From contig NZ_JACADR010000009.1 of assembly GCF_016106005.1 (NCBI RefSeq), positions 1-43,222 of the forward strand: 43,222 bases of DNA. Reading direction: 5' to 3'. The notes beneath the pieces are model-generated. The model ran no database searches, was not told where the DNA came from, and saw only the letters and a program-made list of their open reading frames with translations. The position numbers and the translations under genes were made by a program. This document shows positions 37,330-42,145 of this stretch, piece by piece. Origin of the DNA: Roseomonas rosulenta. Lineage in GTDB: Bacteria; Pseudomonadota; Alphaproteobacteria; Acetobacterales; Acetobacteraceae. The stretch's first letter is position 1. Each line of letters opens with the position of its first letter.

Positions 37330-37485
37330 CAACGCTGCCACCGGTTCGCAACATTACGGATCGGAATTCGTTCCAGGAGTTGCCGCTCTCGAGGGGCAAG
37401 CATGGCCCACCGAATCATGCAGCCCGGCGCCGATGCCGGTGTCCGCCCTCTTGCATGTCATCCACCGGCCGGGCTTGCTGCGCGA

Positions 37486-38325
37486 ATGCGCCTTCTCACC
37501 GGTCACGCGCGCCTTGCCGGGGTTCTCGGCTGGCCCGTCTCGCATTCCAGATCACCGCGCCTGCATGGGCATTGGCTGGCAACGCTGGGCATCGATGGCG
37601 CCTACCTGCCGCTGCCGGTGCATCCTGACCGTTTCGCTGCGGCGGTGCGCGCGCTGGCTGATCTCGGGTTTCGCGGCGCGAATGTGACCATCCCCCACAA
37701 GCAGGCAGCCTTCGCTGTGTGCGACGTGGTGGACGCCACGGCGCGACGGGCCGGCGCGGTGAATACCCTGGTGTTCCGTGACGGCCGCATCGAGGGCTCG
37801 AACACCGACGGATTTGGCTTCCTGGAAAGCGTGCGGGAGGGTGCGCCGGGCTGGCAGCCAGCCGACGGGCCGGCCGTGCTGCTGGGTGCTGGCGGGGCCG
37901 CACGCGCCGTGGCTGCCGCCCTGCTCGCTGCCGGCTGCCCGCGCGTCACGCTGGTCAACCGCTCGCGCGACCGTGCCGCGGCCCTCGCGCGTGACCTTGG
38001 CGGGGCGGTGGCGGTGGCCGATGCCCCTCCGGTGGACGACGCCGCGCTGCTCGTGAACACCACCTCGCTCGGCATGCAGGGCCAGCCGCCCCTGGAGATC
38101 GACCTTGCCGCACTGCCGTTTGCGGCCGTGGTCGCCGACATCGTCTATGTTCCGCTCGAGACGTCGTTACTGGCGGCTGCCCGTGCCCGCGGCCTGCGTG
38201 CCGTGGACGGGCTGGGCATGCTCCTGCACCAGGCACGCCCGGGCTTCGAGGCCTGGTTCGGCGTAGCCCCGATCGTCGATGCCGGCCTCCGCGCCGTGGT
38301 CGCAGCCGATATTCCACCCCGATGA
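37486..38325 (+). CDS. aroE: Shikimate dehydrogenase
   Basis: NADP-dependent enzyme reducing 3-dehydroshikimate to shikimate in aromatic amino-acid synthesis; 279 residues from the chosen start. Substrate-site motif GWPVSHSRSPRLH, catalytic lysine in NVTIPHKQAAF, N-x-x-G-F in GSNTDGFGFL, NADP motif GAGGAARAVAAAL and NRSRDRAA are present. ATG 37486 fits the family's N-terminus. ATG 37402 adds 28 residues but has a better ribosome site (GAGGGG, 5 nt spacing), so the longer form remains possible. It overlaps coaE by ATGA. Confidence 0.92.
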   Translation: MRLLTGHARLAGVLGWPVSHSRSPRLHGHWLATLGIDGAYLPLPVHPDRFAAAVRALADLGFRGANVTIPHKQAAFAVCDVVDATARRAGAVNTLVFRDGRIEGSNTDGFGFLESVREGAPGWQPADGPAVLLGAGGAARAVAAALLAAGCPRVTLVNRSRDRAAALARDLGGAVAVADAPPVDDAALLVNTTSLGMQGQPPLEIDLAALPFAAVVADIVYVPLETSLLAAARARGLRAVDGLGMLLHQARPGFEAWFGVAPIVDAGLRAVVAADIPPR

Positions 38326-38918
38326 TCATCCTTGGCCTGACCGGCGGCATCGGGATGGGGAAGTCCACCGCGACTGCCACGCTGCGGCGCCTGCGGATCC
38401 CGGTCTTCGATGCCGACGCGACGGTGCACCGGTTGCAGGCGCGCGGCGGCCGTGCCGTGGCGGCGATCGCCGCAACCTTCCCCGGTAGCGTGCCGGACGG
38501 CCGAGTGGACCGGGAGGCGCTGCGCCGTGCCGTATTGAGCGATGCCGCTGCGCTGAAGCGCCTCGAGGCGATCGTCTGGCCATTGGTACGTGACGAGGAA
38601 CGCCGTTTCCTCGCCCGTTCGCGCCGCGGCGGCGCCCGTGTGGTGGTGCTGGACGTGCCTCTGCTGTTCGAGAATGCTGGCGAGGCGCGTGTGGACCAGG
38701 TGATCGTCGTCTCCGCCCCACTTGCCGTGCAACGCGCGCGGGTGCTGCGTCGGCCTGGCATGACTGCCGATCGCTTTGCCGCCATCCATGCGCGCCAGAT
38801 GCCGGATGGACAGAAGAGGCGCCGCGCGGATCATGTGGTGCGGACCGGCCTCAGCCGCTTCTTCGCCCAGGCGGCGATTCGGCGCATCATCGGCCGGCTC
38901 CGGCACAGCAAGCCCTGA
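38322..38918 (+). CDS. coaE: Dephospho-CoA kinase
   Basis: Last enzyme of coenzyme A synthesis, phosphorylating the 3'-hydroxyl of dephospho-CoA; 198 residues. P-loop GLTGGIGMGKST at the N-terminus; DADATVHRL and VVLDVPLLFENAG are typical. It is coupled to aroE by a 4-bp overlap, an arrangement common in alphaproteobacteria. Followed by dnaQ after 43 bp. Confidence 0.93.
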   Translation: MIILGLTGGIGMGKSTATATLRRLRIPVFDADATVHRLQARGGRAVAAIAATFPGSVPDGRVDREALRRAVLSDAAALKRLEAIVWPLVRDEERRFLARSRRGGARVVVLDVPLLFENAGEARVDQVIVVSAPLAVQRARVLRRPGMTADRFAAIHARQMPDGQKRRRADHVVRTGLSRFFAQAAIRRIIGRLRHSKP

Positions 38919-38961
38919 CCGCGGGATTCCAGCATGCGCGCCGCGCTGGTAGCATCCGGCC

Positions 38962-39660
38962 ATGCGGCAGATCATCCTCGATACCGAGACCACCGGCCTC
39001 GACCCGCTGCAAGGCGACCGCGTCATCGAGGTGGCGGCGGTCGAACTCGTGAACCTGTTGCCGACCGGCGCCGTGTTCCACCGCTTGGTCGATCCGCAGC
39101 GCGACATTCCGGCCGAGGCCACTCGGATCCATGGCTTCACCAACGGTGACCTGGCAGGCAAGCCACGCTTCGCCGATATCATCGCGGAGCTGGTCAGCTT
39201 CCTGGGCGATGCGCCGATCATTGCCCATAACGCGCCCTTCGACTTCGGCTTCCTCGACGCCGAATTCCGCCGCTGCGGCGTCCAGCCGCTGGATCGCGGC
39301 CGCATGATCGACAGCCTGGCACTGGCCAAGCAGCGCTATCCCGGCATGCCGAACAGCCTGGACGCGCTGTGCCGGCGCCTGGGCGTCGACAACTCCATGC
39401 GCAGCTCGCACAACGCCATCCTGGATTGTCGGCTGCTGGCCGAGGTCTATCTCGAACTCATGGGCGGCAAGCAGCCAGGCTTCGAGCTGGCCGCTGCCCT
39501 GGCCAGCCGCGCCGAGACACTCGCAGTGGGAGAAACCGTCGCCTGGACTCCGCGACCCATCCTGGTGAGCGAGCCGCAGGCCACCGATCATGCGACATTC
39601 CTGCAGGCGAAGGTGAAGGACTCGCTCTGGCTGAAGCCGCCCTTCGCCGGGGCACCCTGA
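38962..39660 (+). CDS. dnaQ: DNA polymerase III epsilon subunit (3'-5' proofreading exonuclease)
   Basis: 232-residue DEDDh exonuclease. Exo I ILDTETTGLDP, Exo II IIAHNAPFDFGFLD, Exo III HNAILDCRLLAEVYLEL. The C-terminal tail (about 190-232) contains the region that contacts the polymerase alpha subunit. Sits in the conserved aroE-coaE-dnaQ cluster. Confidence 0.93.
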   Translation: MRQIILDTETTGLDPLQGDRVIEVAAVELVNLLPTGAVFHRLVDPQRDIPAEATRIHGFTNGDLAGKPRFADIIAELVSFLGDAPIIAHNAPFDFGFLDAEFRRCGVQPLDRGRMIDSLALAKQRYPGMPNSLDALCRRLGVDNSMRSSHNAILDCRLLAEVYLELMGGKQPGFELAAALASRAETLAVGETVAWTPRPILVSEPQATDHATFLQAKVKDSLWLKPPFAGAP

Positions 39661-39885: not shown

Positions 39886-40944
39886 TCAGGCCGAGCGCAG
39901 GATCCGCATGAGCTGCGTCACGTGCTCCGGCGGGGTTTGCGGCACGATGCCATGCCCCAGGTTGAAGACGTAAGGGCGCCCACGCATCGCGCCCAGGATT
40001 GACCGCGCCTCGGCTTCCAGCGCGGCCCCGCCCGCTACCAGCGCCAGCGGGTCGAGGTTGCCCTGCAGTGCCATCGTCGCCGGCACGGCCTGCGCCGCCC
40101 AGCGCGGGTCCATCGAGGTGTCGATCGCCGTCGCATCTACCCCCGCCCGCGCCGCGTAATCCGTCAGCAGCGGCCCGGCGAGGCGCGGGAAACCGATCAG
40201 CGGAATGCCTGGGCAGCGCTTACGCAGCGCGCGGGTGATGGCGGCGGTCGGCTCGATCACCCAGCGGCGGAACTGGCCCGGCGAGAGCATCCCGGCCCAG
40301 GAATCGAAGATCATCAGCGCCTCGGCGCCTGCTTCCACCTGCGCCACGAGGTATTCCACCGTGGCCTCCTGCAGGGTGCGGATCAGCCGGCCGAACAGTG
40401 CCGGATCCTGGTAGGCGAGGCTGCGCGCGGTCGGGAATTCCTTGCTGCCCTTTCCTTCCAGCATGTAGCAGGCGACCGTGAAGCACCCGCCGGCGAAGCC
40501 GATCAGCGTGGTGCGCGGTGCCTCGGCCGCGAGGCCTTCGCGTACACGGGACACTGTCTCGAAGACCGGGGCGGCGCGCGCCACAACCACGGACGGGTCA
40601 AGGGCCGCGATCGCTTCCGCCGTCCGCAGCGGCTCGAGGAGCGGCCCCTCGCCCTCGGCGAAGCGCAGCGGCTGGCCGAGCGCCCAGGGGATCATCAGGA
40701 TGTCCGAGAACAGGATCGCCGCTTCCATGCCGTAGCGACGGATCGGCTGCAGCGTGACCTCGGCCGCGAGCGGCGGGGTGGTGCAGAGGCTGATGAAATC
40801 CCCCGCCTGGGCGCGCAACTCCCGGTATTCCGGCAGGTAGCGCCCGGCCTGGCGCATCAGCCAGGCGGGCGGAGGCCATACGGCCTCGCCACCCAGGGCA
40901 CGCAGGAGGGGCTTGGCCGGGATCGTCGGGCGTTCAGTGTCCAT
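39886..40944 (-). CDS. hemE: Uroporphyrinogen decarboxylase
   Basis: Heme-pathway enzyme converting uroporphyrinogen III to coproporphyrinogen III; 352 residues. Signature 1 PAWLMRQAGRYLPEYRELR near the N-terminus; signature 2 region IFDSWAGMLSPGQF; GFVG-type active-site region FSDILMIPWALGQ; C-terminal GNLDPLAL and FNLGHGIVPQTPPEHV. ATG at 40944 is preferred with a GAAGGG ribosome site; TTG at 40950 is less likely. In alphaproteobacteria hemE is classically beside the replication origin. It is divergent from ppsR across 298 bp. Confidence 0.95.
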   Translation of the reverse strand: MDTERPTIPAKPLLRALGGEAVWPPPAWLMRQAGRYLPEYRELRAQAGDFISLCTTPPLAAEVTLQPIRRYGMEAAILFSDILMIPWALGQPLRFAEGEGPLLEPLRTAEAIAALDPSVVVARAAPVFETVSRVREGLAAEAPRTTLIGFAGGCFTVACYMLEGKGSKEFPTARSLAYQDPALFGRLIRTLQEATVEYLVAQVEAGAEALMIFDSWAGMLSPGQFRRWVIEPTAAITRALRKRCPGIPLIGFPRLAGPLLTDYAARAGVDATAIDTSMDPRWAAQAVPATMALQGNLDPLALVAGGAALEAEARSILGAMRGRPYVFNLGHGIVPQTPPEHVTQLMRILRSA

Positions 40945-41000
40945 GACCAACCCTTCGCAAGGAATCAGGTTTTAAGGAAGGGTGTGAAGGCTGTTGGGGG

Positions 41001-41009
41001 TGTGGATGA
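41001..41009 (-). promoter_or_regulatory. DnaA-box-like site 1
   Basis: TCATCCACA on the minus strand, 8 of 9 to the TTATCCACA consensus, in the left arm of the inverted repeat. Confidence 0.5.
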
Positions 41010-41044
41010 CGGGGATGCAGGTCATCCCCGGCCCGTGTCGCGGC

Positions 41045-41053
41045 TTGTCCACC
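41045..41053 (+). promoter_or_regulatory. DnaA-box-like site 2
   Basis: TTGTCCACC, 7 of 9 to consensus; could be a weak site. Confidence 0.35.
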
Positions 41054-41099
41054 GGGGCGCTTGTGCTCGAAGCCCAGGTCAGTCCTGGCCTTCCCCGGC

Positions 41100-41108
41100 C
41101 TGTCCACA
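41100..41108 (+). promoter_or_regulatory. DnaA-box-like site 3
   Basis: CTGTCCACA, 7 of 9 to consensus. Confidence 0.35.
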
Positions 41109-41209
41109 CCATCCCCCGGGTCGGCGCCTGGATTATCCCGGGCGGATGGAACAGTGCCGGCGATTCACCATGTCCAGCCGCACGGCCAGCCGTCATGATT
41201 CCATCCCCG

Positions 41210-41218
41210 TCATCCACA
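41210..41218 (+). promoter_or_regulatory. DnaA-box-like site 4
   Basis: TCATCCACA, 8 of 9 to consensus, in the right arm of the inverted repeat and 24 bp before the ppsR start. Confidence 0.5.
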
Positions 41219-41242
41219 GCGAAGCACGCTATCGTCCCCAAG

Positions 41243-42145
41243 ATGATCCACCGCCAGATCAACCTGCATCTCGTCTCGGACTCCACGGGGGAGACGCTGA
41301 ACTCGATCGCCCGCGCCACCCTCGCGCGGTTCGACGACCATCACGTGATCCATCACCGCTGGTCGCTGGTGCGCTCCCGCCTGCAGCTTGATCGCGTGCT
41401 CGAGGGGATGGAGCACGAACCCGGCCCGGTGCTCTACACCCTGGTCGATTCCAGCCTGCGCCTGGCGCTGGAAGAACACTGCGGCCGCCTTGGCCTGCCC
41501 TGTTTCTCGCCGCTCGACCCCGTGATGGAGCTGCTGCAGGGGGCCTTGGGCGCGCGCGCGAAGGAAAAGCGCGCGGCACAGCACGTCATGGATGCCGATT
41601 ACTTCCGCCGTATCGATGCCATGCACTACGTGCTGAGCCACGATGATGGCCAGGGCACGCTCGGCATCCGCAACGCCGACGTGGTGCTGGTAGGGGTGTC
41701 GCGATCCTCGAAGACGCCGACCTGCTTCTATCTTGCGAACCGCGGCATCAAGGCGGCGAACGTACCGATCGTGCCAGGTGCGGGCCTGCCCGACGCTCTG
41801 GAGAACCCCCCCTGCCCGGTGGTCGGCCTTTATATCGAAGTGAATGCGCTGATCGACATCCGCCGTCACCGGCTCAAGATCATCGGTGCCGGCGGGGTGC
41901 GGCAGGACGCGACCGACTACATCGACCCCGAGGCTGTGAAGGCGGAGATCGTCGCCGCGCGGCGGCTCTGCACGGCGCGCGGCTGGCCGGTGATCGACGT
42001 GACCCGCCGCAGCATCGAGGAAACCGCGGCGACGGTGCTGCAGCTGATGGATGCGTGGCATGCACGCCGGAAGGATGCCGCCGCTCCGCCGCCCCCCGAC
42101 GATCCCGCCGCGAGCGTGCTGGGCGTGCGCGGCGCCGGGGCATGA
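41243..42145 (+). CDS. ppsR: Pyruvate, phosphate (or water) dikinase regulatory kinase/phosphorylase (DUF299)
   Basis: Bifunctional regulator that phosphorylates and dephosphorylates PPDK or PEP synthase using ADP/Pi; 300 residues. Opening [18 protein letters not shown], the nucleotide loop [10 protein letters not shown] (151-160) and [16 protein letters not shown] are diagnostic. Which dikinase is the target is not visible here. ATG 41243 is preferred over the long open frame upstream, which runs through the intergenic repeats. Its stop overlaps the maf start by ATGA. Equivalent to the 'RP001' gene near the Rickettsia origin, as I recall. Confidence 0.9.

Follow-up and report, generated by a model that had tools for sequence, protein, structure and literature searches.

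The stretch of DNA analysed here, 43,222 bp from Roseomonas rosulenta (Acetobacteraceae) and referred to as the window, contains a 298-bp gap between two divergent genes: hemE, for uroporphyrinogen decarboxylase, and ppsR, for a pyruvate phosphate dikinase regulator of the DUF299/COG1806 family. The gap had been put forward as a candidate chromosomal replication origin, a proposal which the gene pair, the sites found between the genes and their conservation in 81 homologous gaps now support. As judged from sequence comparison, positions 40945-41242 are very probably a chromosomal origin (oriC) of the alphaproteobacterial hemE/COG1806 type, that of the Caulobacter origin (Cori); the gene pair, the cluster of DnaA boxes, an unstable patch, the length and sites conserved over the 81 gaps and, in relatives, the position of parS and the polarity of the FtsK-orienting polar sequences (KOPS) are compatible with such an origin. 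Cori has been mapped experimentally between hemE and a COG1806 gene (PMC1914354), and the same source places the predicted origin of Rickettsia prowazekii at hemE, in line with the original remark on Caulobacter crescentus and R. prowazekii.

When 9-mers were scored against TTATCCACA, the four predicted DnaA-box-like sites were all found in place: two matching at 8/9, both TCATCCACA (41001-41009 on the minus strand and 41210-41218 on the plus strand), and two at 7/9. A fifth 7/9 site, TGATCCACC (41244-41252), lies inside the start of ppsR. Nowhere else in the window does a 9-mer come within one mismatch of the DnaA box than at the two 8/9 sites. Of 2000 dinucleotide shuffles of the gap, 0.1% produced two 8/9 sites or more, and 0.05% produced four or more that scored 7/9 or better (P 0.001 and 0.0005, respectively); the cluster exceeds chance. 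The long inverted repeat noted earlier has arms at 41001-41017 and 41202-41218, complementary at 17/17 bases and 184 bp apart. It consists of a single composite DnaA element, in this genome TCCCCGTCATCCACA, that is present twice and faces outward on both sides. Compared with the published Caulobacter W-boxes (TCCCCA) and G-boxes (TGATCCACA) (PMC4285127), the unit reads as a W-box-like motif followed immediately by a DnaA box similar to a G-box; W-boxes are reported to require cooperation with G-boxes (PMC4468827).

Furthermore, the original A+T-rich patch beside hemE was borne out: by nearest-neighbour energy, no 30-bp segment of the window is less stable than the one that begins at 40959, and the left box is oriented toward it. 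Over 52 gaps, mean A+T is 0.66 for the 20-bp stretch that begins 40 bp to the hemE side of the left box, and 0.28-0.47 from 20 bp before that box onwards. The GC content of the gap is 0.64, vs 0.70 for the whole window.

Table 1. Features of the proposed origin region of R. rosulenta and its boundary genes, in window coordinates
Feature	Position	Strand	Remarks
hemE, uroporphyrinogen decarboxylase, left boundary	39886-40944	-	NCBIfam TIGR01464 equivalog, 379.6 bits (cut-off 302.95)
Proposed chromosomal origin (oriC, Cori type)	40945-41242		298-bp gap hemE(-)/ppsR(+)
A+T-rich least stable patch, proposed DNA-unwinding element	40958-40988		nearest-neighbour energy
GANTC (GAATC), within unstable patch	40962-40966		alignment column 19, GANTC in 23/34
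Left composite element TCCCCG+TCATCCACA, W-box-like + DnaA box	41001-41015	-	points to hemE and unstable patch
Weak DnaA-box-like site TTGTCCACC, 7/9	41045-41053	+	place varies between relatives
Weak DnaA-box-like site CTGTCCACA, 7/9	41100-41108	+	DnaA-box-like site there in several same-genus gaps
GANTC (GATTC)	41162-41166		alignment column 224, GANTC in just 4/34
GANTC (GATTC), directly ahead of right composite	41197-41201		alignment column 259, GANTC in 26/34 (N = A in 15, T in 11)
Right composite element TCCCCG+TCATCCACA	41204-41218	+	points to ppsR
ppsR (DUF299/COG1806), pyruvate phosphate dikinase regulator, right boundary	41243-42145	+	NCBIfam NF003742, 294.4 bits (cut-off 225)

The arrangement is widely kept. 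Among the loci retained from a PpsR scan (the best 80 of 409), hemE is divergent from the adjoining ppsR in 79/80, the exception being L046, with just 59 bp ahead of the ppsR match and no hemE on the locus. The set of 81 gaps was obtained from the window, L002-L016 and L031-L110 (96 in total) by removing L046 and 14 exact duplicates; L017-L022 lie outside it. Gap length is 294-300 bp in the 16 same-genus sequences (window plus 15) and 277-862 bp over all 81, of which 36 fall within 290-300 bp. At up to two mismatches, a DnaA box is present on the minus strand in 74/81 gaps, on the plus strand in 80/81 and on both in 73/81; at up to one mismatch, 44/81 hold two or more boxes and 38/81 have them on both strands. 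At this stricter threshold the 81 gaps contain 127 boxes in 26.6 kb, vs 43 in 599 kb of flanks, a 66-fold difference in density.

The composite was followed in an alignment of 34 gaps, a subset picked by length and relatedness with 47/81 left out. TCC[CT]C precedes the left box in 34/34 rows and CCCC the right box in 32/33 comparable rows; since the base before the right-copy CCCC varies (T in 12, C in 21), the strictly shared core is CCCCRTNATCCACA. Left copies reading literally TCCCCA-TGATCCACA number 9/34, and in the rows inspected the two composite boxes start 207-210 bp apart. The Caulobacter 8-mers GGCCTTCC and AAGCCCGG occur in 3 and 2 of the 81 gaps, the former once in the window (at 41087), and were attributed to chance.

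In the own draft genome of 5.28 Mb, the exact pattern TCCCCRTNATCCACA has two matches, one per strand, both in this gap. It matched 53/200 genomes of the family (the reversed control gave 3 matches), and of ten loci inspected there 3/10 are at hemE/ppsR and 7/10 away from it. In 385 genomes of the class Alphaproteobacteria, 29 were matched (own included), with 31 matches vs 7 for the control; 28 of the 29 non-own matches were inspected, one lacking a locus, and 7/28 lie in the hemE/ppsR gap, in six families, and 21/28 elsewhere. Since a target of only 277-431 bp takes a quarter of the class matches, this placing is far beyond chance. With up to one mismatch, two units are present in 34/81 gaps, one in 23 and none in 24, so that the composite is common, not universal. 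Tandem copies of TCCCCRTNATCCACA 19 bp apart were seen in three family genomes (G137:C1:2003024/2003043, G213:C18:13708/13727 and G233:C199:90748/90767).

These data also bear on the possibility that the gap is merely a divergent hemE/ppsR promoter region, with boxes serving DnaA-dependent transcription and the origin elsewhere. At 14-44 bp upstream of the hemE start, the unstable patch is placed where the hemE promoter could be, DnaA is also a transcription regulator in Caulobacter (PMC2877005, PMC4468827), and most of the exact composites inspected in family and class are away from this gene pair. However, a promoter alone fits poorly with the near-fixed gap length, with inverted elements at a nearly constant spacing over many species, with the box density relative to the flanks, with the recurrence of the composite in the same gap of six other families and with an origin mapped at this gene pair in Caulobacter, and we regard it as very unlikely. 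Promoter and origin can coexist in the gap.

Chromosome polarity was sampled on two large contigs: that of G007, a genome of the same genus in one contig of 5,481,269 bp with the gap at 5,338,920, and that of G035 (Siccirubricoccus sp. G192, the genome of L072), with the gap near 567 kb. With the E. coli KOPS pattern GGGNAGGG, G007 shows 25 plus-strand and 77 minus-strand copies from -2.74 to -0.25 Mb of hemE, and 48 and 15, respectively, from +0.33 to +2.74 Mb, with balance within 120 kb. Scores there were 110 at the best position (20 kb), 108 at dnaA, 98 at hemE and 94 at parS; the hemE value was reached by a sign-flip null in 0/200 cases and is equalled by 5% of positions. With arms set to 30-70%, G035 scored 81 at its best position (1.70 Mb), 69 at both hemE and parS and 29 at dnaA; the hemE value has a P of 0.005, and 23% of positions score equally well. 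The bootstrap median for the G035 origin is 1.68 Mb, with a 5-95% range of 0.54-5.32 Mb. The terminus was sharper than the origin, at 2.66 Mb in G007 and, nearly opposite hemE, at 3.36 Mb in G035. The distance between the gap and parS is 13 kb in G035 and 76 kb in G007.

GC skew, suggested originally as a check, was computed in these relatives, since the assembly of the own genome is a draft split into 671 contigs, and the outcome was weak. In G007 hemE scored 41.3 of a maximum of 54.0 (at 5.40 Mb) and dnaA 34.6; in G035 hemE scored 22.9 of 29.9 (at 0.14 Mb) and dnaA 2.4. The sign-flip P for hemE is 0.045 and 0.035, respectively; the best point lies elsewhere in both, and the check is not decisive. 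The sampled cumulative skew of G035 has its minimum at the contig start and dips again near 0.56-0.7 Mb. For G007, skew was also fitted at third positions of 762 called genes (60 sampled stretches, 1.2 Mb in all); this fit explained about 1% and was discounted as uninformative. GC skew has been reported as insufficient in several Alphaproteobacteria (PMC1914354). The E. coli dif pattern found no match at 3 mismatches in two genomes, and a small-subunit rRNA model had none in either; that model also missed Caulobacter among the controls and is hence uninformative. As a whole, polarity supports the hemE region and offers some evidence against dnaA in G035; it does not resolve the site.

An origin at dnaA, as in many bacteria, appears most improbable. 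In G007 dnaA is 142 kb from the gap and outscores hemE for KOPS, and in G035 with free arms it comes near (61 vs 69, or 30 vs 34 with half of the stretches). However, the 3.0-4.4 kb dnaA loci of G007, G000 and G035 contain no 9-mer at up to one mismatch to the DnaA box, and in G035 dnaA is 1.7 Mb from the gap and, with restricted arms, far below hemE both in KOPS and in GC skew. The G035 dnaA match (G035:C1:2283697-2285086) is in two pieces with starts in different frames, perhaps through a frameshift or a sequencing error.

A second locus deserves attention in the genus. In G007, two DnaA boxes on the same strand, at 5,255,326 and 5,255,431 (G007:C1:5255326-5255439, L180:15326-15439), stand 105 bp apart between converging genes, one of which in our reading resembles chaC, with no NCBIfam match, and the other is acylglycerolphosphate acyltransferase-like, below the model cut-off. 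The spacing is exactly 105 bp in 11/14 homologous loci (homologues L281-L285 and L287-L291), in 9/11 of which TCCCCAGAC precedes the second box, and no other same-strand pair so spaced was found in the 2.6 Mb examined. In the seven genomes with both on one contig, the pair is 23-84 kb from the hemE/ppsR gap. Its perfect or near-perfect boxes, their constant spacing and a position 8 kb from parS in G007, where polarity cannot separate 84 kb, would suit an origin of the genus. Against this stand the position between converging genes (we know of no alphaproteobacterial origin so placed), a match in just 19/35 genus genomes, several of them short and from 20 candidates scored per genome, and a mean A+T between the boxes of at most 0.58 (15-bp blocks), and we consider such an origin highly unlikely. 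The pair may be a DnaA titration or reactivation site.

Several observations weigh against the hemE/ppsR gap as origin. No polarity scan has hemE as its top-scoring position: the KOPS optimum of G007 is at 20 kb and that of G035 at 1.70 Mb, and the third-position fit in G007 preferred 2.84 Mb (R2 0.011). The low dnaA score of G035 depends on the arms being held to 30-70%. No composite was found in 24/81 gaps even at one mismatch, and the gap of G007 itself holds one box at that threshold, with the better pair 84 kb off. The contig with the gap carries neither parS nor dnaA in the own genome, where both were located on different contigs. Finally, the gap has neither a canonical CtrA site nor an IHF consensus: TTAAN7TTAA is absent from the window gap and present in 1/81 gaps, and WATCAN5WTR is likewise absent from the window gap and present in 5/81. 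CtrA sites are present in Caulobacter and said to be absent from most other origins (PMC4468827), and we did not take them as a defining feature beyond Caulobacter and its close relatives; nor was the IHF consensus taken as one, since the sequence quoted for the IHF site of Cori differs from it.

If the gap is the origin, as we believe, DnaA-ATP would bind first to the two outward-pointing composites, in each of which a W-box-like TCCCCR immediately precedes the DnaA box, and then cooperatively to the weak boxes between them. The resulting complex would melt the unstable patch beside hemE, where the helicase would be loaded for bidirectional replication. Once the origin has fired, its GANTC sites would stay hemimethylated until CcrM acts, which may tune re-initiation.

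This plan resembles that of the C. crescentus Cori in the boundary genes and the few, weak DnaA boxes (PMC1914354, PMC4285127, PMC4468827, PMC3973325), as well as in the W-box-like TCCCCR with boxes of the form TNATCCACA, the A+T-rich stretch and the several GANTC sites. It differs in the missing CtrA and IHF consensus, in length (298 bp vs the more than 400 bp quoted for Cori) and, apparently, in its inverted outer pair of DnaA boxes, each directly adjoined by the W-box-like motif. The predicted origins of R. prowazekii and Wolbachia are also at hemE, with COG1806 and COG1253, respectively, on the other side (PMC1914354); a difference is that the gap described here showed no CtrA or IHF consensus.

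As for the surroundings, the local order is aroE, coaE and dnaQ (all on the plus strand), a short open reading frame (ORF), hemE (minus), the gap, ppsR and maf (both plus), and the window PpsR is 96% identical to one Roseomonas sp. record and 88-92% to the listed Neoroseomonas records. The aroE, coaE and dnaQ genes, at 37402-39660, are thus on the hemE side of the gap; in Caulobacter they presumably follow ppsR-maf, i.e. on the opposite side, in which case the neighbourhood here would be rearranged.

The GANTC sites, the motif of the methylase CcrM, require separate treatment. The original count of three in the gap, vs about one expected, is correct (1.16 by shuffles, and 0.33 per 298 bp from the density of the window), but it is not significant alone (P(>=3) = 0.10). 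The 81 gaps together hold 349, vs 120 expected by shuffles and 24 from flank density, and in 65/81 the gap exceeds every same-length window of the remaining locus. The gap-to-flank ratio is 16.3, vs 0.6-3.5 for seven other self-complementary pentamers used as controls. The maximum is 11 sites, in 310 bp (L095) and in 319 bp (L082), and Belnapia reaches 11 per ~310 bp. Sequence from GANTC-rich group genomes, 300 kb in total, has at most 3 sites in any 320-bp window, and its density is 1.24/kb outside called ORFs vs 13.1/kb in the gaps. In G007 the densest cluster seen in 1.2 Mb is away from the gap (G007:C1:5124354-5124900, L197), where 298 bp hold as many as 7 GANTC, with a single TGATCCACA at the edge of the cluster; the G007 gap has fewer, 3.

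Among 13 aligned GANTC-rich gaps with 5-11 sites each, one site is present in 13/13 with C, A or G in the middle and another in 12/13 with T or G, but 4 of 12 columns with at least five sites show a single middle base. In the 34-row alignment, the middle base in column 27 is T in 16/16, and 22/34 rows have a GANTC beyond the right box, toward ppsR, which the window does not. Because sites are kept while the middle base changes, we read several of them as selected for the methylation motif itself. A CcrM-type RAMA domain was found in 34/35 genus genomes and in 15/15 others (49/50 in total), and GcrA-type genes in 34/35 genus genomes, with a partial match only in the own genome. Three gaps (L012, L014 and L106) are free of GANTC and their genomes (G010, G012 and G044) retain the RAMA domain, which weighs against a strict need for GANTC. 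In G033, the CcrM-type match was flagged for an internal TAG, which proved to be the normal stop codon that ends the frame (L218); the same flag appears in G000 and G014.

The presence of GANTC in the Caulobacter origin has been reported previously (PMC3973325). In Caulobacter, CcrM is not required for initiation, and its overexpression disturbs chromosome content (review, PMC6090056). For the RepC-type ori2 of Agrobacterium, hemimethylation of origin GANTC has been proposed to limit re-initiation, with effects at ori1 not significant (PMC11514494). Among the literature matches listed, whose scope excludes most subscription papers, no report of dense origin GANTC clusters in Acetobacteraceae was found. 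It is conceivable, although we hold it rather unlikely, that Roseomonas-like Acetobacteraceae have a DnaA-dependent origin under direct CcrM control, in which GANTC clusters would hold a fired origin hemimethylated and inactive until CcrM acts, as a separately evolved counterpart of Dam/SeqA. The oriC of E. coli carries dense GATC, and the dense methylation sites in the origins of some relatives (L095, L082) are similar to it, whereas the methylase here is CcrM, the motif GANTC and the role of methylation a candidate one.

The kind of origin described is already known; less expected are its GANTC-dense variants and the second conserved pair of DnaA boxes 105 bp apart, and the informative details are the internal plan of the gap and the behaviour of GANTC. 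A probable origin is placed for a group in which GC skew is nearly useless, at least in the two relatives sampled, and dnaA can be as far as 1.7 Mb away (G035). Moreover, the 81 homologous gaps reveal which bases are kept and provide two testable items, the inverted composites of W-box and DnaA box and the GANTC clusters. A possible action of CcrM methylation on DnaA-type origins is an old question, and in a group where 49/50 genomes searched carry the CcrM-type RAMA domain, clusters ranging from 0 to 11 sites per lineage make it directly testable.
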